This document shows positions 1-12,684 of a stretch of DNA of 12,684 nucleotides, piece after piece. Under the pieces are notes generated by a model. The model saw only the letters and a program-made list of their open reading frames with translations, did no database searches and was not told where the DNA came from. The translations under genes and the position numbers were made by a program. Each line of letters opens with the position of its first letter. The stretch's first letter is position 1. The DNA lies in NCBI GenBank assembly GCA_027322565.1, contig DAHVRG010000111.1:1-12684 (forward strand), written 5' to 3'. The DNA is from Georgenia sp. (lineage in GTDB: Bacteria; Actinomycetota; Actinomycetes; Actinomycetales; Actinomycetaceae).

Positions 1-899
1 GGGGCGGCGCCGAGGGCGGCGATGGCGTACTCGTCGAGGTCGGAGGTCACGGTGATCTTCGTCGACGTCGCGCCGAGCTCGTCGAGCTGCTGCCGCACGG
101 TGAACGCCTGGGCGACGAGGTCGCCGGAGTCGAGCCGCACCGCGCCGAGCTCCCCGCCGTGCCGGCGGGCGGCGGCCACCGCGCGCTCCACGCCCCGCTC
201 GACGTCGTAGGTGTCGACGAGCAGCGTCGTGCCCGGCCCCATGGCGCGCACCTGGGCGTCGAAGGCCGCCTCCTCGTCGTCGTGGACGAGGGTGAAGGAG
301 TGGGCCGCGGTGCCGATCGTCGGGATGCCGTAGGTGCGTCCGGCCTCGAGCACGCTGGTCCCGACGAACCCGCCGACGACGGCGGCGCGCGCGGCGGCGA
401 CCGCGGCCTCCTCGTGCGTCCGACGCGCCCCCATCTCGAGGCATGGCCGGCCGTGGGCAGCGGTGGTCATCCGGGACGCGGCCGCGGCGACGGCGCTGTC
501 GTGGTTGAGGACGGAGAGCACGACGGTCTCGAGGAGGAGCGCCTCGGCGAAGGTGCCGCGGACGGTGAGGATCGGCGACCCCGGGAAGAAGCACTCCCCC
601 TCGCCGTAGCCGAGGACGTCGCCCCCGAAGCGGTAGTCGGCGAGGTACTCCAGCGCCTCCTCCCCGACGACGCGCTGCTCGCGCAGCCAGGCGATCTCGG
701 CGGTGGAGAAGGTGAAGTCGGCGATCGCGTCGAGGACCCGCCCGGTCCCGGCGACGACGCCGTAGCGTCGGCCGCCCGGCAGGCGGCGGGCGAAGACCTC
801 GAAGACGCCGGCCCGGTGGGCGGCACCGGACTGGAGGGACGCCTCGAGCATGGTGAGCTCGTAGCGGTCGGTGAGCAGGGCGGTGGTCGCGCGTGACAT
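1..899 (-). CDS. pncB: Nicotinate phosphoribosyltransferase, N-terminal part (3' end cut by window edge)
   Basis: This enzyme joins nicotinate and PRPP to form nicotinate mononucleotide, with ATP hydrolysis, in cytosolic NAD salvage (Preiss-Handler route). The gene starts at the ATG at 899-897 and runs off the left edge; 299 residues are visible. The N-terminus shows the family pattern LLTDRYELTMLEA (residues 8-20). A GYGEGECFFPGSPI stretch lies near 97-110 and MGARRTHEEAA near 156-166. GTAAHSF (196-202) contains His200, matching the phosphorylatable histidine of the family. The phosphate-binding stretch VRLDSGD is at 254-260. There is no good Shine-Dalgarno: GAGG lies only 3 nt from the ATG. 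A TAGGTT -10 box lies 7 nt upstream, so the mRNA may be leaderless. The gene follows the helicase on the same strand after a 90-bp gap containing a hairpin, so it is probably transcribed separately. The family assignment is firm. The missing C-terminus is due to the window, not truncation. Confidence 0.95.
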   Translation of the reverse strand, partial: MSRATTALLTDRYELTMLEASLQSGAAHRAGVFEVFARRLPGGRRYGVVAGTGRVLDAIADFTFSTAEIAWLREQRVVGEEALEYLADYRFGGDVLGYGEGECFFPGSPILTVRGTFAEALLLETVVLSVLNHDSAVAAAASRMTTAAHGRPCLEMGARRTHEEAAVAAARAAVVGGFVGTSVLEAGRTYGIPTIGTAAHSFTLVHDDEEAAFDAQVRAMGPGTTLLVDTYDVERGVERAVAAARRHGGELGAVRLDSGDLVAQAFTVRQQLDELGATSTKITVTSDLDEYAIAALGAA

Positions 900-906
900 G
901 GGCCTC

Positions 907-912
907 AACCTA
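907..912 (-). promoter_or_regulatory. Putative -10 box of pncB (leaderless promoter)
   Basis: TAGGTT on the minus strand fits the actinobacterial TANNNT -10 consensus. It ends 7 nt before the pncB ATG, the spacing expected when transcription begins at the start codon. No convincing -35 was found at 16-18 nt. This is inferred from position and consensus only. Confidence 0.4.
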
Positions 913-942
913 GCGACCCTTCCGCCCCTCCTGCCCCGGGAG

Positions 943-980
943 CCCGTCCCCGACCCACCGACGCGGGCGGTGGGGACGGG
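943..980 (-). terminator. GC-rich hairpin downstream of the helicase gene
   Basis: The arms CCCGTCCCC (943-951) and GGGGACGGG (972-980) are perfectly complementary over 9 bp. ACCG/CGGT can add a short inner stem. The hairpin begins 10 nt after the helicase TAG, on the transcribed strand. No U-tract follows it, so it may be a weak actinobacterial-style terminator or an mRNA 3'-end stabiliser separating the helicase from pncB. Confidence 0.45.
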
Positions 981-989
981 AGCGGGCCC

Positions 990-2828
990 CTACTTCCGGC
1001 CGACGAACCAGTTGCGGAGCAGGGCGATGCGCGCCTCGATCTCCTCGATGCTGGCCAGCGGCACCTCGGGGCCGCCGCAGCGCTTGCGCAGCTCGGCGTG
1101 GATCATCGCGTGCGGGGTGTTGCTGCGGCGCGACCACGCGGCGACCAGGCCGCCCAGCTCCTTGCGCAACGCGGCGCGGCGCTTGTGGTCGGAGATGCCG
1201 GCGTTCTCCTCCCGCTGCGCCCTGGCGGCCGCCTGCCGCTTCTGCTGCTTGACCTGGTCCGCCTGCCGGGCGCGCAGGCGGGCGCGGACCTGCTCGGGCT
1301 CGAGCAGGCCGGGGATGCCGAGGTACTCCTCCTCCTCGACCGAGCCGACCTCCGCACCGGTGCCGAACTCACCGCCGTCGAAGAGCACCCGGTCGAAGGA
1401 GGCCTGCGCGTCGAGGGCCTCGAACCCGGGGAGCATGAGCTCGTCGCTCGCCTTCTCCTCCCGGTTCGCGGCGGCGACGAGGGCGTCCTCGGGGGTGAAG
1501 AAGTCACCCTTCTCCTCGTTGGTGAGCACCCGGTCCAGGGCATGGTCGCGCTCGACCTCGAGCTGGGCCGCGAGCTCGAGGAGGACGGGCACGCTGGGGA
1601 GGAAGACCGAGGCCGTCTCGCCGCGGCGGCGGGCGCGGACGAAGCGTCCGATCGCCTGGGCGAAGAACAGCGGGGTGGCGCTGGAGGTGGCGTAGACGCC
1701 GACGGCCAGCCGCGGGACGTCGACTCCCTCGGAGACCATCCGGACGGCGATCATCCAGCGCTGGTCGCCCGCGGAGAACTCGTCGATGCGCTCGGAGGCG
1801 CCCTCGTCGTCGGAGAGGACGACGACCGGCGGCTCACCGGACACCTCGCGCAGCACGCGGGCGTAGGCCCGCGCCTTGGCCTGGTCGGTGGCGATGACCA
1901 GACCGCCCGCGTCGGGTACCCCGCGCCGCACCTCGGTGAGGCGGCGGTCGGCGGCCTGGAGGACGGCCGGGATCCAGTCGCCTGCCGGGTCGATGGCGGT
2001 GCGCCACGCCTGGGCGATGAGGTCCTTGGTCAGCGGCTCCCCGAGCGTGGCGCTCACCTCGTCACCCGCGCGGGTGCGCCAGCGCATCTGACCGGAGTAG
2101 GACAGGAAGATCACCGGGCGGACGACGCCGTCGCGCAGCGCGTCGGCGTTGCCGTAGGAGTAGTCCGCGCGGGAGCGGCGCACGCCGTCCGCGTCCCGCT
2201 CGTAGGTGACGAACGGGATGGCCGCGGTGTCGGAGCGGAAGGGGGTCCCGGTGAGGGCGAGGCGCCGGCGCGCCGGCTCGAAGGCGATGCGGATGCCGTC
2301 ACCCCAGGACAGCGCGTCCCCGCCGTGGTGGATCTCGTCGAGGATGACGAGGGTCGGCTGCGCCGTCGTGCGGCGGCGGTGCAGGTCCGGGTTGGCCGCG
2401 ACCTGGGCGTAGGTGAGGGCGACGCCGTCGAAGCTCGCACCGTGCCGCTCCTGCGCGTTGCGGAAGGCGGGGTCGAGCTGGATGCCGACCCGGGCCGCCG
2501 CCTCGGCCCACTGGCCCTTGAGGTGCTCGGTGGGGGCGACGACGGTGACCGCCGTGACCTCCCGGCGGGCGAGCAGCTCGGTGGCGACCCGCAGCGCGAA
2601 GGTCGTCTTGCCGGCGCCGGGCGTGGCGACCGCGAGGAAGTCGCGCGGGTCGGTGTCGAGGTACTGCTGCAGGGCCTCGGCCTGCCAGGCGCGCAGCCGG
2701 GAGGCGGTCCCCCAGGCGGCCCGGGCGGGGTAGGCGGGTGGCAGGTGCTCCGCGGCAGCCGTCGACACACCCGCAGGTGCGCCCTGCGGGTGGGTCGTCG
2801 CCGGCCTGCGCTGACCGGCGGCGCTCAC
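990..2828 (-). CDS. DEAD/DEAH box helicase (superfamily 2, partner of DUF3039)
   Basis: This is a 612-residue ATP-dependent nucleic-acid helicase or translocase. Visible SF2 motifs are a Q-motif-like RAWQAEAL near 46-53, Walker A TPGAGKTT (69-76), Walker B DEIH (164-167), the TGTPFR motif III region (193-198), MVSEGVDVPRL (motif V, about 364-374) and QAIGRFVRARR (motif VI, 391-401). After the two RecA-like domains comes a charged, Gln/Arg/Ala-rich helical segment (about 505-545). It ends in a C-terminal module with HAMIHAELRKRCGGP (573-587). I chose the GTG at 2828 because it overlaps the DUF3039 stop as GTGA and the protein then begins just before the helicase fold; an upstream in-frame ATG at 2993 would lie inside DUF3039. 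The gene is probably translationally coupled to DUF3039. The helicase family is clear, but the cellular role is not known to me; DNA repair or RNA work are both possible. Confidence 0.93.
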   Translation of the reverse strand: MSAAGQRRPATTHPQGAPAGVSTAAAEHLPPAYPARAAWGTASRLRAWQAEALQQYLDTDPRDFLAVATPGAGKTTFALRVATELLARREVTAVTVVAPTEHLKGQWAEAAARVGIQLDPAFRNAQERHGASFDGVALTYAQVAANPDLHRRRTTAQPTLVILDEIHHGGDALSWGDGIRIAFEPARRRLALTGTPFRSDTAAIPFVTYERDADGVRRSRADYSYGNADALRDGVVRPVIFLSYSGQMRWRTRAGDEVSATLGEPLTKDLIAQAWRTAIDPAGDWIPAVLQAADRRLTEVRRGVPDAGGLVIATDQAKARAYARVLREVSGEPPVVVLSDDEGASERIDEFSAGDQRWMIAVRMVSEGVDVPRLAVGVYATSSATPLFFAQAIGRFVRARRRGETASVFLPSVPVLLELAAQLEVERDHALDRVLTNEEKGDFFTPEDALVAAANREEKASDELMLPGFEALDAQASFDRVLFDGGEFGTGAEVGSVEEEEYLGIPGLLEPEQVRARLRARQADQVKQQKRQAAARAQREENAGISDHKRRAALRKELGGLVAAWSRRSNTPHAMIHAELRKRCGGPEVPLASIEEIEARIALLRNWFVGRK

Positions 2829-3166
2829 TCTCCGCTTCCGCCGGTGCCGCGGCCGCCCCGACCGAAGCCGCCGAAGCGGCCCTTGCCGGACCCGGCGTCG
2901 CCGCCACCCTGGAGGCTTTCGTAGATCTCCTTGCACGTGGGGCAGACCGGGTACTTCTTCGGGTCCCTGCCCGGGGTCCACACCTTGCCGCACAGCGCGA
3001 CGACCGGCTGTCCGGACAGCGCGGACGCCATGATCTTGTCCTTCTTGACGTAGTGCGCGTAGCGGTCGTTGTCACCGGGCTCCTGCTCGCGCAGCTCCTC
3101 GCGCTCCAGGACGCTCGTGCCGGACGACGGTTCGCTCGGGTGGCTGGGAGGCTCGGTGGAACTCAT
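2825..3166 (-). CDS. DUF3039 domain protein with putative zinc site and Gly/Arg-rich tail
   Basis: This is a 113-residue cytosolic protein that I recognise as the actinobacterial DUF3039 family; its function is unknown. After an acidic, Ser/Pro-rich N-terminus, the core (about 30-85) has YAHYVKKDKI, then ALCGKVW, then CPTCKEIYESL. His38, Cys59, Cys75 and Cys78 could form a His-Cys3 zinc site; this is inferred from spacing only. Residues 87-113 are almost entirely Gly, Arg, Ser and Phe (GRFGGFGRGGRGTGG), resembling an RGG-type RNA- or DNA-binding tail. The stop overlaps the helicase GTG as GTGA, so the two are almost certainly co-expressed and may work together. The ATG at 3166 has only a distant GGGAGA as a possible ribosome site. 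A TAGACT -10 box ends 7 nt upstream, pointing to a leaderless transcript. Confidence 0.9.
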   Translation of the reverse strand: MSSTEPPSHPSEPSSGTSVLEREELREQEPGDNDRYAHYVKKDKIMASALSGQPVVALCGKVWTPGRDPKKYPVCPTCKEIYESLQGGGDAGSGKGRFGGFGRGGRGTGGSGE

Positions 3167-3173
3167 GCGGACC

Positions 3174-3179
3174 AGTCTA
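3174..3179 (-). promoter_or_regulatory. Putative -10 box of the DUF3039-helicase operon
   Basis: TAGACT on the minus strand matches TANNNT and ends exactly 7 nt before the DUF3039 ATG. GGGACC, 17 nt upstream at 3197-3202, is a poor -35. The geometry suggests transcription starting at the ATG. The nagB stop lies only 42 bp upstream of this box, so read-through from nagB is also possible. Confidence 0.42.
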
Positions 3180-3220
3180 GGACGTCTCCCGCCGGTGGTC
3201 CCGGCGGCCCGCAGCCGCGG

Positions 3221-4006
3221 TCAGAGCCGCTGCCACCGTGGCTTCACGGCGTACGCCTCGCGGTAGTAGTCGAGCCGCTCGAGGCGGGCGGCGGCGGCCT
3301 CGTCGAGCAGGACGGTGGCGTGAGGGTGGTGCTGCATGACCGTCGCCGGCCAGGAGGCGCTCACCGGCCCCTCTACGAGCTGCTGCACGGCCTGCGCCTT
3401 GGCCTCGCCGGTGGCGACGAGGATGAGGTGGCGGGCCTCCATGATCGTGCCCAGCCCCTGGGACAGGCACAGGCGGGGGACGGCGTCGACGTCGCCGTCG
3501 AAGAAGCGGGCGTTGTCCTCCCGGGTCTGGCGGGTCAGCGCCACCACACGGGTACGGGAGGCGAGCGAGGAGCCGGGCTCGTTGAAGGCGATGTGGCCGT
3601 TGCTCCCGATGCCGAGGATCTGCAGGTCGATGCCGCCGGCGTCGTGGATGGCCTGCTCGTATGCGACGGCGGCGGCCTGGGGGTCCTCGGCGAGGCCGTC
3701 AGGCCCCTGGACCGCACCCGGTGGGAAGTCGACCCGCCCGACGATCTCGCGGTCGATGACGGTGCGGTAGCGCTCCGGGTGGTCGGCGGGCAGTCCGACG
3801 TACTCGTCGAGGAGGAACCCGCGGGCGCGGGCGAAGGAGACGCGCCCGACCTCGTACCGGCGGACGAGCTCGTCGTAGATGGCAACCGGGCTCGAGCCGG
3901 TGGCCAACCCGAGGACGGCGTCGGGCCGGTCGGTCAGCAGCTGCTCGACCGCGTCGGCGACCAGGACGCCGATCTCCTCCTCGCTGTCCGTGATGACGAC
4001 CTCCAC
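3221..4006 (-). CDS. nagB: Glucosamine-6-phosphate deaminase
   Basis: This enzyme converts glucosamine-6-phosphate and water to fructose-6-phosphate and ammonia, the last cytosolic step of amino-sugar (N-acetylglucosamine, chitin) catabolism. The protein has 261 residues, close to the usual family length. Phosphate-binding GLATGSSP is at 33-40. LDEYVGLP (66-73) carries the catalytic Asp67. GIGSNGHIAFNEPGSS (132-147) carries His138 and Glu143, with Asn136 where E. coli NagB has Asp141, a substitution I recall from other Gram-positive NagB proteins. I chose the GTG at 4006 because AAGGAGAGG (4013-4021) precedes it by 6 nt and the protein then begins VEVVITDSEE, like family N-termini. The upstream ATG at 4072 would add 22 atypical residues and would lie upstream of the probable transcription start. 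No nagA or sugar transporter is in the window. The gene stands alone behind its own leader. Confidence 0.95.
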   Translation of the reverse strand: MEVVITDSEEEIGVLVADAVEQLLTDRPDAVLGLATGSSPVAIYDELVRRYEVGRVSFARARGFLLDEYVGLPADHPERYRTVIDREIVGRVDFPPGAVQGPDGLAEDPQAAAVAYEQAIHDAGGIDLQILGIGSNGHIAFNEPGSSLASRTRVVALTRQTREDNARFFDGDVDAVPRLCLSQGLGTIMEARHLILVATGEAKAQAVQQLVEGPVSASWPATVMQHHPHATVLLDEAAAARLERLDYYREAYAVKPRWQRL

Positions 4007-4012
4007 CTGACA

Positions 4013-4021
4013 CCTCTCCTT
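4013..4021 (-). promoter_or_regulatory. Ribosome binding site deciding the nagB start
   Basis: AAGGAGAGG on the minus strand lies 6 nt before the GTG at 4006. It selects that GTG over the upstream in-frame ATG at 4072. Confidence 0.7.
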
Positions 4022-4033
4022 CGCGCCCGTGTG

Positions 4034-4050
4034 CGGTGCAGCGTGCACCG
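4034..4050. promoter_or_regulatory. 17-bp palindrome in the nagB leader (candidate operator)
   Basis: CGGTGCA-gcg-TGCACCG is a perfect 7-bp inverted repeat around a 3-bp centre. It lies between the putative -10 (4059-4064) and the nagB ribosome site, directly downstream of the expected transcription start. That is a typical repressor position for an amino-sugar-responsive regulator. It does not match the DasR consensus I know. It could alternatively act as an mRNA hairpin. Confidence 0.45.
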
Positions 4051-4058
4051 GCGTGTCC

Positions 4059-4064
4059 AGCGTA
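4059..4064 (-). promoter_or_regulatory. Putative -10 box of nagB
   Basis: TACGCT on the minus strand fits TANNNT. A start about 7 nt downstream would give a leader of roughly 45 nt containing the 4034-4050 palindrome and the ribosome site. No good -35 is visible, so an activator or a weak promoter is possible. Confidence 0.35.
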
Positions 4065-4096
4065 GTGACCACGCGAGCCGGAATCCTGGATACGCG

Positions 4097-4127
4097 AAGG
4101 CGGGCAGGACGCCGTCCTGCCCGCCTT
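4097..4127 (-). terminator. Strong hairpin terminator between hup and nagB
   Basis: Arms 4097-4110 (AAGGCGGGCAGGAC) and 4114-4127 pair perfectly over 14 bp around a 3-nt loop. The hairpin begins 22 nt after the HU stop codon. There is no clear U-tract on the minus strand. The perfect, GC-rich stem still makes it the most convincing terminator in the window, and it should separate hup transcription from nagB. Confidence 0.75.
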
Positions 4128-4148
4128 CCGCGTGAGGTCGCTAGACCG

Positions 4149-4433
4149 TCACTTGTTGGAGACAGCCTTCTTCAGGGCGCTGCCCGCGGAGATCTTCACG
4201 CCGTAGCCGGCCGGGATCTGGATCTCCTCGCCGGTCTGCGGGTTGCGGCCGGTGCGCGCCGCGCGCTCGACGCGCTCGACAGACAGCAGGCCCGTGATCT
4301 TGACGGCCTCGCCCTTGCTGACGGACTCGACAAGCACGTCCTGCAGGGCCGACAGAGCGGCGTCGGCCTGGGACTTGGTGAGCGAGGAGCGCTCGGCCAC
4401 AGCGGCGACGAGCTCGGTGCGGTTGACGGACAT
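4149..4433 (-). CDS. hup: HU family nucleoid DNA-binding protein
   Basis: This is a small histone-like protein of 94 residues that binds and bends DNA as a dimer in the nucleoid. It starts MSVNRTELVAAVAERSSLTKSQADAAL (given here only as a guide to the helical N-terminus). It has the GEAVKITG turn (41-48) and the DNA-binding beta-arm RTGRNPQTGEEIQIPA (60-75), including Pro65, which in HU family proteins intercalates into DNA. It ends SALKKAVSNK. It lacks the long Lys/Ala/Pro-rich tail of mycobacterial HupB and Streptomyces HupS, so it is the short HupA-like form. GAGAGAGGGA lies just upstream of the ATG at 4433. It has its own promoter region (4434-4514) and a terminator 22 nt downstream, so it is probably monocistronic and highly expressed. 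Confidence 0.96.
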   Translation of the reverse strand: MSVNRTELVAAVAERSSLTKSQADAALSALQDVLVESVSKGEAVKITGLLSVERVERAARTGRNPQTGEEIQIPAGYGVKISAGSALKKAVSNK

Positions 4434-4615: not shown

Positions 4616-5400
4616 TCAGCGGAACCGGCTGCCCTCGTCGTGCCGGTGGGCGAGCCCGGCCAGGACGGTGCACAGGAGGGCCCAGCCGAGGAGCACCGGC
4701 AGGGCGAGCGGGTAGCTCTCGACGCCGGTGACGGTCTCGACGACGACGTCCCGGCCGGCGCGGCTGGGCAACCACTGCGAGACCGACTCCAGCCAGCCGG
4801 GGAAGAGCTGCGGCGGGAGGAACAGGCCGCCGGCGAAGGCGAGTGGGAAGAGCAGCAGCTGGACGACGGCGATTGCCGCCTTGTTGCTCAGCCGGTAGCC
4901 GATAGCCAGGCCCAGCATGAGGAAGGGCAGCGCGGCGGCGAGGACAACGAGCGCCCCGAGGCCCAGCGTGCCCGCGTCGACCGTCGCCGCGGTGAGCAGC
5001 CCGCCGATGAGGAGCAGCGGCACCAGGCTGGCCAGCGCGAAGAGCAGGCCGGTGAGCACGCGGGCGAGGAGCCGGGGCGCGACGCCGGCCGGCAGGGTGC
5101 GCAGGTACCCGTCGAAGGGCAGCGCCCGGTCCTCGGCGACCCCGGCGCCGAAGGTGAACAGGAAGGTCGACATCACGGCGAACAGGGCGAGCTGTGCGAC
5201 GGCGGACGTCGCCGCCACCGGGTCGTCGGCCACCTGCGCGTTCGGGACGACGAAGAAGACGAGCGCCAGGCCGGGGAAGAGCAGGTTGCCGATGACGGCG
5301 ATCGGTATGCGGACCGTCTCGAGGATCCCGAAGCGGGTGTGGAGCAGGACGAGCCGGCCGAACCCGGGGGCGCGGAGCGGCTGCGGTGCGGTGAGGGCGG

Positions 5401-5404
<4 letters not shown>
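4616..5404 (-). CDS. ABC-2 type transporter permease
   Basis: This is a 262-residue integral membrane subunit of an ABC exporter, pairing with the ATPase encoded just upstream. Six hydrophobic segments are visible, at about 34-53, 68-89, 115-138, 147-169, 176-196 and 232-252. This is the ABC-2 membrane layout, with a loop carrying DGYLRTLPAG (98-107) before TM3 and the characteristic FAGGLFLPPQLFPGWLE region (190-206). It starts at the ATG at 5404, which overlaps the ATPase stop as ATGA, so translation should be coupled. It is the last gene of the operon beginning at about 7255; no clear terminator follows. The substrate is unknown; drugs, lipids or antibiotic-like peptides are typical for this class. 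Confidence 0.9.
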
Positions 5405-6311
<907 letters not shown>

Positions 6312-6312
<1 letters not shown>

Positions 6313-6617
6313 CAGGTGCTCTTCCCTCTCAGCAGGGCTTCCAGCGACTCGGTGTAGGTCTCGAAGGCACGGCGACCCTGCTTGCTCAGGGCCACGTAGG
6401 TCACGGGGCTGCGCCCCTCGAAGGTCTTCTCCACGGCGACGTACCGGGCGTCCTCGAGCTTGCGCAGGTGGGTGGACAGGTTCCCGGCGGTCATGTCGAG
6501 GAGCTGCTGCAGCTTGGTGAAGGTGAGGTGGTCCCCCTCGGGCAGCGCCGCGAGCGTGGCCATGACGCGTAGCCGGGACTGGGCGTGGATGACGGGGTCG
6601 AGCTCGACGTCGCTCAT
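6312..6617 (-). CDS. Winged-helix transcriptional regulator
   Basis: This is a 101-residue DNA-binding protein of the winged-helix type often matched by the HTH_34 (MarR/ArsR-like) domain. The helix-turn-helix covers about 32-56 (LTFTKLQQLLDMTAGNLSTH and on to LRKLEDARYV). It is followed by the wing VEKTFEGRSPVTYVALSKQGRRAF (written in part; 62-85). It starts at the ATG at 6617, overlapping the membrane-protein stop as ATGA, and its stop overlaps the ATPase start by one base. The position inside an exporter operon suggests a local repressor of that operon. The 33-bp palindrome at 7276-7308 is the natural candidate for its operator. There is no obvious ligand-binding domain, so signal sensing may be done elsewhere or by the wing domain itself. 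Confidence 0.9.
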
Positions 6618-7255
6618 GCCGACCGCCGCCGCGCGAGGTCCACGAGCACCGCGACGAGGAACCCGCCGCCGCCGGCCACCGCCATGACGAGGTAGGCGGC
6701 CGGTGTGCCGAGCAGCGCCGCGGCGCCGGCGACGAGGGCCACCCAGGCGCCCAGCCCGAACATCGGCCACTCGCGCCACAGCGCCCCTCCGGCCATGTAG
6801 AGCAGGCCGACGATGATGCAGCTGACCCCGTTGGTGAGCACCGCCATGACCGCGTCCCCGGCGCCGGCGCGCACCGCACCGGCGAAGAGGAGGCCGGCCG
6901 CGAGGAAGGCGACGAACCACGTGATGCCGTACATCGCCCCGACGGTGGCGGAGTCGCCGCGGATGCCCGCAGCGCGGCGGGTGGTGTGCACAGCCGTGAT
7001 GACGACGGCGACGACGAGGAGCGCGGAGAAGACGCCGAACGCCCAGTCCGCCGGGACGGGGCCGTCGGCGGTGAGGAAGAGGGTGAGGTAGCCGGCGAGC
7101 CAGGCCACGCCCCAGGCCGAGCCGATGAGGGCGAAGCTGGGCGCGGTGCGGCGGCGGGTGCGCTCGCGCTCGGCGGCGATCAGGGCGAGCAGCGCCGCCG
7201 GGTCGTCGGGGAGGCCGCCCTCCGGGACGTCGTGCGGGTCCTTGCTCACGTCCAT
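6614..7255 (-). CDS. Six-TM integral membrane protein of unknown function
   Basis: I do not recognise a named family. This 213-residue protein has a charged, cytosolic-looking N-terminus (1-38, with AERERTRRRT) followed by about six hydrophobic segments (about 40-62, 70-90, 106-128, 136-157, 165-183, 186-206). It ends VDLARRRSA. It is the first gene of an operon with a winged-helix regulator and an ABC exporter, and its stop overlaps the regulator start as ATGA. It might sense a membrane or ligand signal for the regulator, or be an accessory exporter part; both are inference. Start choice is uncertain. The ATG at 7255 gives the conserved-looking MDVSKD N-terminus, but AAGGAG (7275-7270) is 14 nt away from it. 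An in-frame TTG at 7264 sits 5 nt from that site and would add three residues. Confidence 0.82.
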   Translation of the reverse strand: MDVSKDPHDVPEGGLPDDPAALLALIAAERERTRRRTAPSFALIGSAWGVAWLAGYLTLFLTADGPVPADWAFGVFSALLVVAVVITAVHTTRRAAGIRGDSATVGAMYGITWFVAFLAAGLLFAGAVRAGAGDAVMAVLTNGVSCIIVGLLYMAGGALWREWPMFGLGAWVALVAGAAALLGTPAAYLVMAVAGGGGFLVAVLVDLARRRSA

Positions 7256-7308: not shown

Positions 7309-7490
7309 GTGCGGGTGCGCAGGGCGCAACCCCCATGAGACCGGCGACGTCGGGTCGCCGGGACGGGACCGATGGGACGAGCCGCACGAGCGGCGGAGCC
7401 CGGCGGCCGGTCACGCGCCGAGGACGACCCGACCCAGCGGAGGCGCGCCGGCGGACGGTGCCGGACCCCGGCGCCCCACCATCCCGGGCG

Positions 7491-7718
7491 TCAGCGGTCC
7501 CGGCGGGCCTCGCGCCGGGAGCCGCCGTACTTCTTGTGCACGGCCTGCCTGGAGACACCGAGGAGGAAGGCGATCTCCGCCCAGGTCAGCCCCTCGCTGC
7601 GGGCGCGGCGCACGAGCACGGCCTCGCGCCGGTCGGCCTCCCGGCGGAGCTTGACGAGGGCGTCGAGGGAGGCGAACAGGTCACCGTCGTCGTCGACGGC
7701 ATGGGCGAGGGAACGCAT
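7491..7718 (-). CDS. Small helix-turn-helix DNA-binding protein
   Basis: This is a 75-residue protein with a basic helical N-terminal half (LVKLRREADRREAVLVRRA, about 21-39). A clear HTH follows, GLTWAEIAFLLGVSRQAVHKK (written in part; 43-63), then a basic tail ending SRREARRDR. It has no sensor domain. I chose the ATG at 7718 because AGGAGG (7729-7724) precedes it by 5 nt. The alternative ATG at 7742 would add eight residues (MAPSEEVS). It has no ribosome site, but a TAGGTT -10 box ends 6 nt before it, so it could be used from a leaderless transcript. The gene stands alone between two operons. Two identical palindromes in its promoter suggest it represses itself. Similar small HTH proteins are common in actinobacteria; their targets are usually unknown. 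Confidence 0.85.
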   Translation of the reverse strand: MRSLAHAVDDDGDLFASLDALVKLRREADRREAVLVRRARSEGLTWAEIAFLLGVSRQAVHKKYGGSRREARRDR

Positions 7719-7745
7719 GGAGACCTCCTCGGACGGAGCCATGCC

Positions 7746-7761
7746 GTCAACCTACGTTGAC
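7746..7761. repeat. Palindrome 1, GTCAAC-N4-GTTGAC (proximal operator copy)
   Basis: This is a perfect 6-bp inverted repeat with the 4-bp centre CTAC. It covers the TAGGTT -10 box of the small HTH gene and ends 3 bp before the upstream ATG (7742). Confidence 0.75.
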
Positions 7762-7778
7762 AGCAGCCGCCACGTCAA
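7749..7778 (-). promoter_or_regulatory. Promoter of the small HTH gene
   Basis: TTGACG (7778-7773) and TAGGTT (7754-7749) are separated by 18 nt on the minus strand, a good -35/-10 pair. Transcription would begin at about 7742, giving a 24-nt leader with AGGAGG before the ATG at 7718. Each element lies inside one copy of the GTCAAC-N4-GTTGAC palindrome, so a protein bound to either copy would block RNA polymerase. Confidence 0.6.
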
Positions 7779-7789
7779 CCCCGGTTGAC
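7774..7789. repeat. Palindrome 2, GTCAAC-N4-GTTGAC (distal operator copy)
   Basis: This has the same six-base arms as palindrome 1 with the centre CCCG; here the symmetry extends to 8-bp arms, CGTCAACC/GGTTGACG (7773-7790). It lies 28 bp from palindrome 1, measured centre to centre, and covers the TTGACG -35 element. Confidence 0.75.
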
Positions 7790-7857
7790 GCGGGGCAGGG
7801 TCAGGCCGGGCGACGATCCGCGGCCTCCCCTCCGTCGGGCACGGCAGCTGCCCGGCG

Positions 7858-8880
7858 TCACCCCGCATCGACGAGCGCGCCGGCCGGGGACCACCCGAGC
7901 GCCGGAGCCACCTCCGCCGCCACGAGGGCGATGGAGCGGAGCACCTCCGGATGCGGTGGGTCGATCGAGTGCACCTGGAACGACAGGTGCGTGGCCCGGG
8001 CGAGCGCGGTGTCCGCGGCGAGGCTGTCCCGGACGGTCTCGGGTCCACCCACGTGGGAGTCCGTGGCGGCGACGAGCTCGCGGGTCGAGAGGCCGGCGGC
8101 GTCGCGTCCGGACGTCGCCTCGACCAGCCGGACCACCCGGCGCAGCCCGGTCTCGGCGTGGGCGAGGGCGGCGGCTTCGTCCTCCGCGACGAACACGGAG
8201 CGGGCGACGCTGATCCGGGGCGCCACACCCGTGGGCAGGTGGGCCAGGTAGGCGTCGACGAGCCGCTCCTGGAGCGTGTCGAGGCGCAGGTCGCGCTCGC
8301 CCTCGGGCCGCGGCTGGGTGCGCGAGAGCATGAGGCCGAACCCGCGGCGTCCGGCCTCGACGGCGAGCGGCTCGGTGAAGGTCGCGAGCCAGATCCGGTC
8401 GGCGAGCGACTCGGCCGGCGGGTAGAGGACCCGCCCCTCCCCCTGGTCCTCCCCGCGCAGGGCGGCCACGAGGCGGTCGAGCTTGTCGTCGAAGAGCGTG
8501 CGCCGCTCGGCGGGGTCCAGGCCGAAGGCGGTGAACGCGGCCGGTGACCCGCCGGAGGCGAGCCCCAGCTCGAGCCGGCCACCGGAGAGGTGGTCGACGA
8601 CGGCGGCATCCTCGGCCACGCGTAGCGGGTCCTCCAGGGCGAGGGTCACCACCCCGGTGGTGAGCCGCACCCGGGAGGTCACGGCGGCTGCGTGGCCGAG
8701 CAGGACGAACGGGGAGGGCAGGCCGCCCTCGTCACCGTCGAGGTGGTGCTGGGCGACGGCGACGGCGTCGTACCCGGCGGCCTCCGCGGCGCGGACCTGC
8801 TCCACGGCGAGGGCGTAGCGCCGGCCGGGCGGCCCCTCGTCCAGGACCCGGGTGAAGAAGCCGAGCTGCTTGCCGCTCAT
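7858..8880 (-). CDS. Luciferase-like FMN-dependent monooxygenase (KPN_01858-type family)
   Basis: This is a 340-residue enzyme of the bacterial luciferase/LLM TIM-barrel class, expected to use reduced FMN and O2 to oxidise a small substrate in the cytosol. Visible marks are the start GKQLGFFTRV (3-12), AVAQHHLDGDEGGLPSP (41-57), VRLTTGVVTLALEDPLRVAEDAAVVDHLSGGRLELGLASGG (spread over 71-111, quoted only by position) and a C-terminal LSFQVHSIDPPHPEVLRSI region (299-317). From memory it fits the LLM family named after KPN_01858, known beside CMD-domain proteins and a peptide-type ABC importer, as here. The ATG at 8880 overlaps the previous stop as ATGA and has AGGAGG 5 nt upstream. It is the last gene of its operon. 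No flavin reductase is in the window. The substrate is unknown. Confidence 0.92.
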   Translation of the reverse strand: MSGKQLGFFTRVLDEGPPGRRYALAVEQVRAAEAAGYDAVAVAQHHLDGDEGGLPSPFVLLGHAAAVTSRVRLTTGVVTLALEDPLRVAEDAAVVDHLSGGRLELGLASGGSPAAFTAFGLDPAERRTLFDDKLDRLVAALRGEDQGEGRVLYPPAESLADRIWLATFTEPLAVEAGRRGFGLMLSRTQPRPEGERDLRLDTLQERLVDAYLAHLPTGVAPRISVARSVFVAEDEAAALAHAETGLRRVVRLVEATSGRDAAGLSTRELVAATDSHVGGPETVRDSLAADTALARATHLSFQVHSIDPPHPEVLRSIALVAAEVAPALGWSPAGALVDAG

Positions 8881-9485
8881 GCGCGCCTCCTCGCGGGCAC
8901 CTCGGGCTCGCCGAGGGAAAGCATGAGCCGGTTGGCCCAGTTGAAGAAGGCGGCGCCGTTGACGACGTCGAGGATCTCGTCGTCGCCCAGTCCGGCCGCG
9001 CGCAGCCGCTCGACGTGCTCGGCGCCGAACCGGACCGGGGTGGCGGTGAGTGCCGCGGCCGAGGCGACGATGGCGTCCCACCGCTCGTCGAGCTGGGCGT
9101 CGGTGCCCTGGTCGAGCAGCCGGTCGACGTCCTCGCCGCGGCCGGAGAGCCGGGCGGCGAGGCGGGCGTGGACGGAGGCGCAGAAGACGCAGCCGTTGAC
9201 CCGGGACGCCGCGGCGGCGGCGAGCTCGCGCTCGGGGCGGGGCAGCCCGCCGTCCTCGTTGCGGAACACGTCGTTGTCGAGCCGGGTGCGGGCACCGAGC
9301 AGCTCCGGGTCGCGGGCGAGCAGCCGGAAGTAGGGGAAGTCGGCGCGCTGCCGCTCCACGAGGCCCGCGTAGTGGCGCTCGGTGAGCTCCTCCGTGGCGA
9401 GTGGCTCGAGCCAGGGCACCCAGCCCAGGGGCTCGCGGGTGAAGGCGTCGGGGCGGTGCAGCCCGGGGTGGTGGTGGACGGTCAT
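8877..9485 (-). CDS. AhpD-like alkylhydroperoxidase domain protein (Avi_7169-type family)
   Basis: This is a 202-residue carboxymuconolactone-decarboxylase (CMD)-like, all-helical protein. Residues GCVFCASVH give Cys99, Cys102 and His106, with Glu87 twelve residues before the first Cys. This matches the Glu118/Cys130/Cys133/His137 spacing of mycobacterial AhpD, so a working thiol peroxidase or disulfide site is likely. The N-terminal half (MTVHHHPGLHRPDAF, then EPLGWVPWLEPL) and the C-terminal helix with DVVNGAAFFNWANRLMLSLGEP (given by position 163-184) fit the alkylhydroperoxidase family I recall as Avi_7169. The ATG at 9485 overlaps the CMD-protein stop as ATGA, and the stop overlaps the LLM start as ATGA. 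It may protect against, or use, a peroxide made by the neighbouring monooxygenase, or act directly on the substrate. Confidence 0.9.
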   Translation of the reverse strand: MTVHHHPGLHRPDAFTREPLGWVPWLEPLATEELTERHYAGLVERQRADFPYFRLLARDPELLGARTRLDNDVFRNEDGGLPRPERELAAAAASRVNGCVFCASVHARLAARLSGRGEDVDRLLDQGTDAQLDERWDAIVASAAALTATPVRFGAEHVERLRAAGLGDDEILDVVNGAAFFNWANRLMLSLGEPEVPARRRA

Positions 9486-10123
9486 CGGGGCTCTCCCGGG
9501 GTGGTGTGCAGGACGGACAGGCCGGCGGCGGCACGGAGCTGGAAGACGAGGTAGGCGACGAGCTGGGACAGGGTGACCACCCCCGTCGAGCTCCAGCCGG
9601 CGGCGACGAGCGCCCCCAGCCGCTCGGGGCGGGCGTCGCGCGGGTGCAGGACGAGCAGCCGGGCGTGCTCGAGCGCGGCGGCCAGCCGCTCCCCCAGCAC
9701 GTCGCGCGCCGTGGCGCGGTAGGGCGGTGCCGGGACGCTCTCGGCGGCCAGACCGGGCTCCGGGTAGGTGCCCACGGGCCCGGGGGTGACGGCGGCGTCG
9801 GCCTCGTCCGTGAGCGCCGCGACGAGGGCGTCCGAGCCGCCGGCGGCCCGCAGCTCGCGCTCGTAGTGGGTGACGGCACGCTCGTGGTGGTGCAGCGCCG
9901 CGACGAAGGTCGCGACGGCGAGCCGTTCGACGATGCCGACCTCCGCGTCGTCGGCGGGCCGGAAGAGCAGGTCGTAGGCGGCCTGCGCCTCCCTCCGGGC
10001 GACGGGGCGCAGGTCGCGCAGCCGGTCGACGGGGCTGTCGGCGGGGATGCCCGCGAGGTCGCGGAGCACGTCGTCGCCGGCGAGACCGGACGGGTCGGTG
10101 CGGGTGAGGGCGTCGGTGGTCAT
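9482..10123 (-). CDS. CMD domain protein lacking catalytic cysteines (Avi_7170-type family)
   Basis: This is a 213-residue, mainly helical protein related to the CMD/AhpD fold. The first half has VERLAVATFVAALHHHERAV (65-84), then THYERELRAAG. The second half has LGALVAAGWSSTGVVTLSQL (169-188), then VAYLVFQLRAAAGL. The second half lines up by pattern with the C-terminal helices of the AhpD-like neighbour. No cysteine occurs anywhere, so it cannot use the AhpD thiol chemistry. It may be a structural partner, a substrate carrier or a different enzyme based on the HHH cluster (78-80). It fits, from memory, the family named CMD domain protein Avi_7170. The ATG at 10123 has AGGAG 6 nt upstream and lies 9 nt after the ABC ATPase stop. 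Its own stop overlaps the next gene as ATGA. Confidence 0.85.
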   Translation of the reverse strand: MTTDALTRTDPSGLAGDDVLRDLAGIPADSPVDRLRDLRPVARREAQAAYDLLFRPADDAEVGIVERLAVATFVAALHHHERAVTHYERELRAAGGSDALVAALTDEADAAVTPGPVGTYPEPGLAAESVPAPPYRATARDVLGERLAAALEHARLLVLHPRDARPERLGALVAAGWSSTGVVTLSQLVAYLVFQLRAAAGLSVLHTTPGEPR

Positions 10124-10132
10124 ATCGGGCTC

Positions 10133-11752
10133 CTAGTGGGTGTCGGCAGGGGCCGCGAGACGGGGCCGTGGGACGGCCGCGAGCAGCTCGCGGGTGTACT
10201 CGCTGCGGGGGGCGGTGAAGATCTCCGCGGTGGTGCCGCTCTCCACCGCGCGGCCACGGTGCAGCACCGTCACGGTGTCGGAGACCTGCCGCACGACGGC
10301 GAGGTCGTGGGAGATGAACAGGTAGGTCAGGCCGCGCTCGCGCTGCAGCTCGGCGAGCAGGTCGAGGATCTGCGCCTGGACGCTGACGTCGAGCGCCGAG
10401 ACGGGTTCGTCGAGGACGACGACGCTGGGGTCGAGCACCAGCGCCCGGGCGATCGCGACGCGCTGCCGCTGGCCGCCGCTGAGCTCGTGGGGCCGGCGGC
10501 GGTGGTACTCCGGGCCGAGGGCGACCCGGTCGAGCAGCGCGGCCGCCCGTTCGGTGCGCTCGCGGCGGCTGCCGAGCCGGAAGTTGCGCAGCGGCTCGGC
10601 GACGATGTCGCGCACCGTCATCCGCGGGTTCAGCGAGGCGAACGGGTTCTGGTAGACGAGCTGGACCCGGCGCCGGAACTGGCACCGGACCTCGCCGCGC
10701 AGGGCGGTGACGTCGGTGCCGTGGACCAGGGCGGCGCCGTCCGTCGCCCGCTCGAAGCCGAGGAGGATACGGGCCGTCGTCGACTTGCCGGAGCCGGACT
10801 CTCCGACGATGGCGTGGGTGGTGCCGGCGGCGACGGCGAAGCTCACGTCGTCCACGGCGCGCACCGAATGGCCGCTGCGGCCGGTGAACTCCTTCGCCAG
10901 TCCGCGCACCTCGATCGCCGGGGCCTGGCCGGCCGCGGCCGCCGGGGGCGCCGGCCGGAACGGTGCCGGGTTGAGGGCGGGGGCGTTGCGCACGAGCCGG
11001 TGGGTGTAGTCCCCGGCCGGGGCGGTGACCACCCGCCTCGCCGGGCCGGCGTCGACCACCCGTCCGCCGCGCATGACGACGATGCGGTCGGCGCGCTCGG
11101 CCGCGGCGGCGAGGTCGTGGGTGACGAAGAGGACGCCGCTGCCGTCCTGCTCGCGCAGCTCGTCGAGCAGGTCGAGGATGCGGCGCTGGACGGTGACGTC
11201 GAGCGCGCTCGTGGGCTCGTCGGCGATGAGCAGTGCGGGCCGCAGCGCGAGGGCGGCGGCGATGAGGACGCGCTGGCGCATGCCGCCGGAGAGCTCGTGC
11301 GGGTAGGCGTCGGCGATCCGCCGGTCGGGCAGGCCCACGCGCTCGAGCAGCTCGGCGACGTGTGCGTCGAGGGTCCGCCGGTCCCGCTCCCCGTGCACGC
11401 GGAGGGTCTCGGCGACCTGCCAACCGACGGTGCGCAGCGGGTCGAGGGAGGTCCCCGGGTCCTGCGGGACGAGCCCGACCACCCGGCCGCGCACGGTCTC
11501 CAGCCGCTTGCGTGACCAGCCGCTGAGGTCGGTGCCCTGGAGCAGCACCCGGCCGCCGCGCACGGTGGCGTTCGGGGCGAGCAGGCCGAGCACGGCGTGC
11601 GCCGTCGTCGTCTTCCCCGACCCGGTCTCGCCGACGATCGCGACGACCTCCCCGGGCGCGACGGTGAGGGAGACGCCGGCGACGGCGGTGTGCTCCGCGC
11701 CGCCTCGCGTGCGGTAGGCGACCTCGAGGTCCCGGATGTCGAGGAGGGTCAT
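10133..11752 (-). CDS. Fused two-domain ABC transporter ATPase (DppD-DppF type, peptide/nickel family)
   Basis: This is a 539-residue cytosolic protein carrying both ATPases of a dipeptide/oligopeptide/nickel-type importer. NBD1: Walker A GETGSGKT 41-48, signature LSGGM 154-158, Walker B LLIADEP 174-180, His212. NBD2: Walker A GESGSGKS 317-324, signature LSGGQ 424-428, Walker B VVVLDEP 444-450, His482. An Ala/Pro-rich linker (about 257-278) joins the halves. YQNPFASLNPRMTV (367-380) and the GDYTHRLV (247-254) and SEYTRELLAAVP (517-528) endings are typical of the family. Both sites look intact. I chose the ATG at 11752 because it overlaps the permease stop as ATGA, has GGGGAG upstream and gives MTLLDIRDLEVAY; the open frame continues upstream but only through the permease gene. 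It drives uptake with the permeases upstream. The substrate is unknown. Confidence 0.95.
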   Translation of the reverse strand: MTLLDIRDLEVAYRTRGGAEHTAVAGVSLTVAPGEVVAIVGETGSGKTTTAHAVLGLLAPNATVRGGRVLLQGTDLSGWSRKRLETVRGRVVGLVPQDPGTSLDPLRTVGWQVAETLRVHGERDRRTLDAHVAELLERVGLPDRRIADAYPHELSGGMRQRVLIAAALALRPALLIADEPTSALDVTVQRRILDLLDELREQDGSGVLFVTHDLAAAAERADRIVVMRGGRVVDAGPARRVVTAPAGDYTHRLVRNAPALNPAPFRPAPPAAAAGQAPAIEVRGLAKEFTGRSGHSVRAVDDVSFAVAAGTTHAIVGESGSGKSTTARILLGFERATDGAALVHGTDVTALRGEVRCQFRRRVQLVYQNPFASLNPRMTVRDIVAEPLRNFRLGSRRERTERAAALLDRVALGPEYHRRRPHELSGGQRQRVAIARALVLDPSVVVLDEPVSALDVSVQAQILDLLAELQRERGLTYLFISHDLAVVRQVSDTVTVLHRGRAVESGTTAEIFTAPRSEYTRELLAAVPRPRLAAPADTH

Positions 11753-12633
11753 CGCTCGCTCCCCAGGGAGCGACTGAGCCGGTTCGCGGAGAGGACGACG
11801 GCGACGATGACGAGACCGGGCAGGGTCGTCACCCACCAGGCCGCGCCCAGGAGGTCGCGTCCCTGGGCGATGATCATCCCCCACTCGGGCTCGGGCGGGG
11901 TGACGCCGTACCCGAGGAAGCCGAGCGTCGACAGCGCGAGGATGGCGGCACCGAACTGCAGCGCGGCGAGGGCGACCACCGGCCGCAGCGAGTTGCGCAG
12001 CACGTGGCGCCACAGCACGGGCAGGAGGCGCCCGCCGCTGCCGTAGGCCGCCTCGACGTAGTCGGTCCCGCGCACCTGGACCACCTCGGAGCGGACCAGC
12101 CGGGCGAAGCTCGCGACCGCGCCGATCCCGACGGCGAGCGCGGCGTTGACCGTGCCCGGCCCGAGCAGCACGACGACGGTGAGTGCGAGCAGGAGCCCCG
12201 GGATCGACAGGAGGACGTCGACGACGCGCATGATGCCGTCCTCGACGATCCCCCCGACCGAGCCGGCGAGGACGCCGAGCAGGGTGCCGGCGCTCAGCCC
12301 CACGGTGACGGCGACCAGTGCCCCGGCGAGCGACTCCGACGCGCCGTGCACGACCCGGGAGAACAGGTCGCGGCCGTTGGTGTCGGTGCCGAAGGGGAAC
12401 TCGGCGCTCGGCGGGTGCAGGCCTCGGGTGACGCTCGCGTAGGCGTCGTGCGGGGCGAACACGCCGGGGAAGAACGCCCACAGCAGGACGACGGCGACGA
12501 CGGCCCAGGCGAGGACCGCGCCGAGGGGCACGCTCGGGCGGCGCCGGCGGGGGCGTCGCTGCTGGCCGGGCCGGGAGCCGGGCGGTGAGGATGCGGTGAC
12601 CGGCGGCTCGAGCCGGGTGACGGTGGCGGTCAC
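11749..12633 (-). CDS. DppC-type ABC transporter permease
   Basis: This is a 294-residue membrane subunit of a peptide/nickel-class importer. A long basic, Pro/Arg-rich cytosolic N-terminus (1-35) precedes TM1 (36-58). The DppC hallmark FGTDTNGRDLFSRVVHGA is at 81-98. Further hydrophobic segments are at about 103-127, 137-157, 162-180, 218-240 and 268-288. The EAA loop that contacts the ATPase is around 188-215 (GTDYVEAAYGSGGRLLPVLW, then RHVLRNSLRP). It starts at the GTG at 12633, 7 nt after AAGGAG, with a GTGA overlap with the probable upstream gene. Its stop overlaps the ATPase start as ATGA. The DppB-type partner and the substrate-binding protein should lie beyond the right edge. Confidence 0.93.
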   Translation of the reverse strand: MTATVTRLEPPVTASSPPGSRPGQQRRPRRRRPSVPLGAVLAWAVVAVVLLWAFFPGVFAPHDAYASVTRGLHPPSAEFPFGTDTNGRDLFSRVVHGASESLAGALVAVTVGLSAGTLLGVLAGSVGGIVEDGIMRVVDVLLSIPGLLLALTVVVLLGPGTVNAALAVGIGAVASFARLVRSEVVQVRGTDYVEAAYGSGGRLLPVLWRHVLRNSLRPVVALAALQFGAAILALSTLGFLGYGVTPPEPEWGMIIAQGRDLLGAAWWVTTLPGLVIVAVVLSANRLSRSLGSER

Positions 12634-12684
12634 GGTCGGGCTCCTTCCAGGGGACGGCCGGCGGCCGGGACGGTGACGGCCGCG
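12630..12684 (-). CDS. C-terminal tail of an upstream gene, probably the DppB-type permease (partial)
   Basis: A frame open to the right edge ends in TGA at 12632-12630, overlapping the DppC GTG start as GTGA. The 17 visible residues (AAVTVPAAGRPLEGARP) are too few to identify a family. The call rests on the overlap style used throughout this operon and on the usual dppB-dppC gene order. Confidence 0.45.
   Translation of the reverse strand, partial: AAVTVPAAGRPLEGARP

Follow-up and report, generated by a model that had tools for sequence, protein, structure and literature searches.

Gene content of the locus

The stretch of DNA analysed here (the window) is one whole contig (C293) of 12684 bases and 75% GC, from a Georgenia genome that is 57% complete. 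Its minus strand carries five adjoining genes of an operon for an ATP-binding cassette (ABC) importer, two proteins of the CMD fold and an LLM-class FMN monooxygenase (Table 1), and this operon is the subject of our report. A first-pass annotation made from the letters alone had described five coupled genes here, and their positions and shared strand were confirmed. Judging from the coordinates, adjacent operon genes overlap by 4 nt, the sole exception being a 9 nt gap between the ATPase and CMD genes. Scans of 7400-12684 for promoters and terminators found none.

Table 1. The operon and the small gene beyond its 3' end, in window positions (bits are given with the model cut-off where there is one; NBD, nucleotide-binding domain; HTH, helix-turn-helix)
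Feature	Position	Strand	Basis
3' end of dppB (last 17 codons and stop)	12630..12683 (bases 12683-12630)	-	Frame like the DppB C-terminus of same-genus genome G001
DppC-type ABC permease (starts at a GTG that overlaps the dppB stop)	11749..12633	-	PF00528, 89.1 bits; best NCBIfam model Opp2C, 223 bits (cut-off of 300 not reached)
Fused two-NBD ABC ATPase	10133..11752	-	Two ABC_tran stretches; PRK11308, 474.5 bits (408)
CMD-fold protein	9482..10123	-	TIGR04029, 181.9 bits (100.75)
AhpD-like protein	8877..9485	-	TIGR04030, 273.4 bits (233.15)
LLM-class FMN monooxygenase	7858..8880	-	TIGR04027, 431.0 bits (412.9)
Small HTH (sigma-70 region 4-like) protein, 3' of the LLM gene	7491..7742	-	Weak Pfam matches

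The three enzymes belong to the families that the first-pass annotation had given under the names KPN_01858, Avi_7169 and Avi_7170, as a hidden Markov model search placed them above the cut-offs of TIGR04027, TIGR04030 and TIGR04029, respectively. The CMD protein had been called cysteine-less, and its composition bears this out: it has no Cys, and no Met beyond the start Met. The AhpD-like protein also exceeds two general models (TIGR01926, 173.8 bits against 81.8; TIGR00778, 43.2 against 27.8), and the LLM scores only 21.8 bits with the NtaA/DmoA model TIGR03860 (cut-off 279.7). The importer parts are of the peptide/nickel group. They share permease and ATPase types with the Gsi, Dpp, Opp and Nik importers, including a two-NBD ATPase as in GsiA, but fall below the NCBIfam equivalog cut-offs for DppC (179.1 bits against 483), NikC (203.9 against 358.45) and GsiA (464.6 against 1077). 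The ATPase does exceed the NikD (404.6 against 318.7) and NikE (411.5 against 332.55) cut-offs, both scores being sums over the two NBDs of one protein.

Because the window is an entire contig, no sequence can be read past 12684. The dppB gene and KPN_01854-type substrate-binding protein (SBP) that had been expected upstream were found on a second contig of the same genome (C168), which carries an SBP gene (TIGR04028, 603.5 bits against a cut-off of 468.5) followed by most of dppB, running off the contig end; the end of dppB lies in the window. The two contig ends map ∼50 bp apart on four same-genus genomes. Five genes thus adjoin in the window itself, and the SBP gene and dppB are joined to them by comparison with these four relatives across a ∼50 bp gap that is unsequenced. 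All four families, TIGR04027, TIGR04028, TIGR04029 and TIGR04030, are therefore represented above cut-off in the genome of the window. A gene for a CAP-domain (PF00188) protein lies upstream of the SBP gene in this genome (L036, 9169-10077). The small HTH protein is, from its sequence matches, a possible regulator, and its gene lies at most ∼3.5 kb from the operon in same-genus genomes G001, G003 and G005 as well.

Conservation of the operon and its CMD-AhpD pair

Searching genome contigs with an LLM alignment gave 477 matching loci, and the analysis used the 80 best, which come from Actinomycetota and Pseudomonadota; open reading frames (ORFs) were the output of a simple caller, and annotation covered some of the neighbour clusters. 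CMD was found in 78 of these 80 loci, AhpD in 77, the ATPase in 70 and the SBP in 69, and the complete seven-gene set was present in 68, so that the co-occurrence claimed in the first-pass annotation was borne out. The points on which that annotation had staked its reading came out in its favor: the proteins fit their families, a permease and an SBP were found, and the genes stay together elsewhere. The families TIGR04027/04028/04029/04030 (KPN_01858, KPN_01854, Avi_7170 and Avi_7169) thus mark the same seven-gene operon as the one described here. The usual order, LLM-CMD-AhpD, holds in all 77 of the 80 loci where the three enzymes were found, whereas the window has CMD-AhpD-LLM, a variant of its genus. 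The LLM exceeded its cut-off in 8 of 99 genomes searched (own genome included), among them 4 of the 5 other same-genus genomes, and CMD did so in 2 of 396 genomes of a phylum sample (own genome included); with so few carriers, the operon is patchy and accessory. The non-pathogenic strain Sinorhizobium americanum CFNEI 73 is one carrier of the full set.

At the thresholds used, the importer was unrecognised in seven loci that have 6 kb or more of upstream sequence, and at one locus (L084) it is reduced to short importer-like fragments. In Belnapia (L112 and L126) the upstream genes best match LivG/LivF and a branched-chain-type binding protein, in place of the Dpp importer, and because one ABC importer can be swapped for another in this way, the enzymes constitute a separate module. 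Clustering grouped two further loci (L133 and L140) with this Liv-like type, the models having been run on the L112 and L126 proteins. Five loci from Reyranella and Rhodospirillaceae (L114, L122, L132, L156 and L162) have a second, Opp-type importer downstream on the opposite strand. Distant LLM paralogues stand beside the operon at L100:14144-15217 and L097:2881-4128, at 123 and 90 bits with TIGR04027, under its cut-off. Proteins like two Glyoxalase_3/VOC representatives are encoded directly 3' of AhpD in 16 of the 80 loci (e.g., L093:12280-13212 and L125:12187-12813), and these genes are probably an optional part of the operon.

CMD and AhpD are fused into one gene in 11 of the 80 loci, ten of them enterobacterial and one from Comamonas, and also in two relatives of the window's organism, one of the same family (G012) and one of the same order (G083; L041 and L043). 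In the AhpD-like protein, E87 (9227-9225), C99 (9191-9189), C102 (9182-9180) and H106 (9170-9168) are invariant among 13 aligned sequences, and CxxCxxxH is present in 74 of 75 complete homologues. In the structure predicted for a fused relative, the CMD and AhpD parts together align with human Sestrin2, as two AhpD-like lobes in the Sestrin arrangement; Foldseek sees this likeness weakly (E 0.015), and sequence comparison found no Sestrin match up to E 10. Sestrins are single chains in which the N-terminal lobe is the catalytic one. In the pair considered here, which is two genes in the window, the catalytic cysteines lie in the C-terminal lobe and are two rather than one (compare PMC4674687 and PMC11429811). 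In the latter, the bacterial proteins closest to human Sestrin architecture, from Corynebacterium ureicelerivorans and Comamonas aquatica, likewise have an N lobe without Cys and a C lobe with two. Going by the model, a Sestrin-like unit of two lobes is a better description of the pair, and the two proteins would pair in the organism of the window too. The first-pass annotation had proposed import followed by FMN-dependent oxidation, which fits; no support was found for the ring opening by CMD-fold enzymes that it had added.

Cysteine and methionine content and neighbouring sulfur genes

The operon proteins are almost free of sulfur-containing residues. Excluding the start Met, and omitting the first 45 residues of SBPs, the family median for Cys plus Met is 0.61% for the LLM (n = 80), 0.00% for CMD (67 unfused proteins), 0.20% for the SBP (n = 69) and 0.54% for the ATPase (n = 70); that of AhpD is 1.52% (n = 75), of which ∼1% is due to the catalytic pair. 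The comparison medians were 2.90% for ORFs of control regions (n = 624) and 2.73% for neighbours (n = 666), and less similar homologues (<45% identity) had 1.96% (SBPs, n = 15) and 2.07% (LLMs, n = 15). The depletion is seen in Actinomycetota, Gammaproteobacteria and Alpha-/Betaproteobacteria alike. In the window the values are 0.29% (LLM), 0.00% (CMD), 0.68% (DppC), 0.74% (ATPase) and 1.49% (AhpD), with 0.60% for the genome's own SBP; the median of these six is 0.64% as compared to 1.86% in 40 same-genus ORFs (p = 2e-4). Sulfur-acquisition proteins have been described as lacking Cys and Met, against a proteome mean of 3.01% in a Gordonia strain (PMC7661421). Calibration on E. coli gave 0 for TauA and SsuE, 0.94% for SsuA and 1.05% for SsuD, as compared to 3.93% for DppA and 3.86% for GsiA. 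Some neighbours of the operon are likewise depleted: 12 of 16 NtaA/DmoA ORFs are at or below 1.1%, MST proteins are at 0.34-0.66%, the MsuE of Microbacterium locus L138 is at 0.52%, and nine VOC proteins measured near the operon are at 0-0.70%.

Sulfur genes are also found beside the operon more often than in controls. The controls were 49 of 60 requested stretches (11 contigs were too short) and, since the same genomes supplied them, mainly from their first contigs, they are not random. A panel of 20 E. coli sulfur genes matched at 60 bits in 17 of 80 loci (10 genera) as compared to 1 of 49 controls (p = 0.0012), and at 100 bits in 9 of 80 and 0 of 49 (p = 0.011), whereas 20 non-sulfur genes matched in 2 of 80 and 5 of 49 at 60 bits and in 0 and 5 at 100 bits. 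NtaA/DmoA-family monooxygenases accompany 15 of 80 loci (8 genera) and none of the 49 controls (p = 4e-4). The MST, SfnB, CysE and Sulf_transp queries were picked after these genes had been seen and are excluded from the panel test.

Individual loci show what these neighbours are (cut-offs in parentheses). Aureimonas L094 has an SsuA-family protein of 232.2 bits (163.5) and, upstream, a CysE-like protein with 256.6 and 188.5 bits, both under cut-off; Microvirga L150 has an SsuA-family protein of 185.7 (163.5). At Microbacterium L138 there is an MsuE flavin reductase of 242.5 (212.5), with a CBS-like protein of 487.9 (510.25, not reached) and a cystathionine gamma-synthase of 635.2 (513) encoded downstream. 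Nonomuraea L146 carries a sulfate importer (CysT, 290 [246.1]; Sbp, 186.5 [155.5]; sulfate ATPase, 400.7 [342.75]). An island in Ectorhizobium (L109) includes Sulf_transp at 184.1 (27) and NtaA/DmoA at 378.7 (279.7), both over cut-off, besides rhodanese/MST-like (138.6 [250]) and SfnB-like (246.4 [430.9]) proteins under it. A CysB-family regulator of 413.5 (402) is found on a Variovorax plasmid, and a TauA of 324.3 (304.25) on a plasmid of A. ampelinum S4. TauD, CysC, CysN, CysD, CysH, CysI, CysJ, CysP and CysZ had no match beside the operon at E 1e-6. Other recurrent annotated neighbours (VOC/Glyoxalase_3, a tripartite receptor, ApbA, ArgG-like, GalE and efflux proteins) suggest no alternative pathway.

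The remainder of the window, also on the minus strand, contains ABC-2 exporter permease and ATPase genes (4616-6879) for which no link to the operon was seen. Within 1-4433 lie a ResIII/DEAD helicase-like ORF (Pfam) and genes that, judged by eye, are for nicotinate phosphoribosyltransferase, glucosamine-6-phosphate deaminase and an HU protein.

Proposed role and rival explanations

Because its proteins are almost without Cys and Met and because it often stands beside sulfur-uptake genes, the operon is most likely a sulfur-starvation system that scavenges organosulfur compounds, a role to which we assign a high probability. The operon would be induced when sulfur is low, and the Dpp-type importer would then bring in an organosulfur compound, probably an anionic one. 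Supplied with FMNH2 by a reductase encoded elsewhere, the LLM would use O2 to oxidise this compound next to its sulfur, so that the C-S bond would break and the sulfur would become available for cysteine synthesis. Together, CMD and the AhpD-like protein would act as one two-lobe, Sestrin-like unit, in which the AhpD lobe (E87, C99/C102 and H106) would reduce either peroxide or a sulfur product in oxidised form, for example a sulfenate or mixed disulfide, and the CMD lobe would be the cysteine-free structural or ligand-binding half.

Several observations weigh against this role. Low Cys and Met content is not peculiar to sulfur proteins, as E. coli PstS is at 0.58%, and sulfur proteins are not always poor in these residues (E. 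coli TauB, 2.36%; TauC, 2.19%; SsuC, 1.91%); nor is depletion seen in two of the neighbours, the CysE at L094 (2.59%) and the Sbp at L146 (1.80%). At 63 of the 80 loci the sulfur panel has no match, and the 80 themselves were selected as the best of 477 and share only 42 genus labels. Some of the 60-bit matches are likely to be cross-hits (SsuD to NtaA/DmoA, and SsuC/TauC to related permeases), CysB taken by itself shows no enrichment (2 of 80 loci as compared to 1 of 49 controls), and some loci have neighbours of another theme (sarcosine oxidase in Paracoccus, for example). None of the genes annotated next to the operon in the lineage of the window itself is a sulfur gene. The only published family member was assayed on poly(acrylic acid) (PAA) and not on any compound of sulfur. 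The literature searched, which left subscription journals and preprints uncovered, yielded no expression data on sulfur limitation; within the same scope, no paper names TIGR04027-04030, and work linking sulfur starvation to such monooxygenases, alkylhydroperoxidases and importers concerns other systems only.

Of three rivals, the likeliest, which we still consider very improbable, is carbon or nitrogen catabolism, in which an imported peptide, opine or amino-acid-like compound would be oxidised by the LLM as a carbon or nitrogen source. The importer, ATPase and SBP are of the group for peptides, nickel and opines, the fold of the SBP matches DppA, AppA, NikA, AgaA and AccA equally, and catabolic genes such as that for sarcosine oxidase adjoin the operon at some loci. 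The fold was tried as a clue to the ligand and rejected: because binders of the cluster-C group (peptide, nickel, glutathione, heme and opine) match at similar scores, it names no ligand. The peptide amine is presumably bound in DppA by Asp436 (residue 408 of the mature protein), which the title of 8z1z names. In all 70 family SBPs aligned, a gap of one residue stands at this position and is followed by an invariant Arg, so that a DppA-like peptide ligand is disfavored; against the weight of this argument, GsiB also lacks the Asp and has an adjoining Glu. Neither Cys/Met depletion nor sulfur-gene neighbours would be expected of a carbon or nitrogen pathway. Among the substrates that the first-pass annotation had listed, organosulfur compounds are thus favored by depletion and neighbourhood, and peptides of the DppA type are not.

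The LLM of the window is of the same family as a crystallised protein, PCX02514 of Klebsiella sp. PCX (PDB 8K74; 331 bits), whose pocket is positive and whose R10A, R125A, S186A, R187A and H253A mutants have lower activity according to the main text of PMC11354265. Four of these five residues are kept in the window protein as R11, R126, S186 and R187 (R11, S186 and R187 being invariant, and R126 nearly so, among 14 LLM sequences), and the fifth, His253, aligns to Glu254. The claim that these families have no assigned pathway holds for the model names, which give none, but is qualified by a Klebsiella member with a structure and a published PAA activity. Together with the invariant Arg of the SBP, the positive pocket suggests an anionic ligand, which is the weaker part of the case.

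The same pocket would suit metal-chelate acquisition, the next rival and a very improbable one, in which an aminopolycarboxylate or metallophore complex is imported and the LLM, beside NtaA-type enzymes, breaks down the chelator. NikA (95.6 bits) is among the best solved relatives of the SBP by sequence, tied with AgaA (94.9), the ATPase exceeds the NikD and NikE cut-offs on summed scores, and NtaA/DmoA enzymes recur near the operon. KPN_01858 was higher in iron-limited K. pneumoniae, but so was TauC in the same experiment (PMC7194016). Sulfur-panel enrichment and Cys/Met depletion also speak against a metal role, and the annotated neighbour clusters (not all clusters were annotated) include no metal enzyme or regulator.

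That the LLM is by nature a PAA oxygenase, as published for PCX02514 on the basis of NADPH-dependent cleavage, tight binding and reduced activity of mutants, is extremely improbable. With NADPH, kcat was 0.00214 per second, and FMNH2 gave no reaction although the fold of the family is that of reduced-flavin oxygenases, so we doubt that PAA is the natural substrate. In addition, a polymer would presumably not be taken in by an ABC importer, His253 is replaced by Glu254 in the window protein, and the terms operon, transporter and sulfur never occur in the main text of that paper (PMC11354265).

Organosulfur scavenging by import and oxidation has precedents. The Ssu, Msu and Sfn systems combine import with a two-component FMN monooxygenase under sulfur starvation. 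E. coli SsuA, SsuD and SsuE (of SsuEADCB) are likewise poor in Cys and Met, and MsuE and SsuA genes adjoin some copies of the operon. The operon differs from Ssu, MsuED and SfnG/SfnB in having another LLM family, a Dpp-type importer instead of SsuABC, no reductase in its core and an added CMD-AhpD pair. By analogy, it may also work like the scm (yxe) pathway of B. subtilis for S-(2-succino)cysteine, in which the FMN monooxygenase ScmK frees a thiol compound from a carboxylated thioether (PMC12757645). The scm pathway uses N-acetylation and deacetylation, whereas none of the seven operon genes encodes an acetyltransferase or deacetylase. The operon would work like Ssu, Sfn or scm with a gene set that differs from all three, and the interpretation given in the first-pass annotation is partly supported overall.

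If the sulfur role is correct, a role in sulfur nutrition that can be tested would be assigned to four NCBIfam families without a pathway, which Actinomycetota and Pseudomonadota have in common, and a further organosulfur route by import and FMN oxygenase would stand beside Ssu, Sfn and scm. The enzyme behind PDB 8K74 would be worth retesting with FMNH2 and sulfur compounds, and bacterial Sestrin-like proteins would have a biological setting. More tentatively, and at somewhat less than an even chance, the operon represents a widespread, previously unrecognised class of sulfur-starvation system that couples a Sestrin-like thiol peroxidase to an LLM desulfurising monooxygenase, the proteins of PMC11429811 being its parts. 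On this reading, and just as tentatively, the thiol peroxidase would be nearly sulfur-free except for its catalytic cysteines, and the bacterial architecture nearest to that of an animal nutrient sensor would sit in a sulfur-nutrition pathway.

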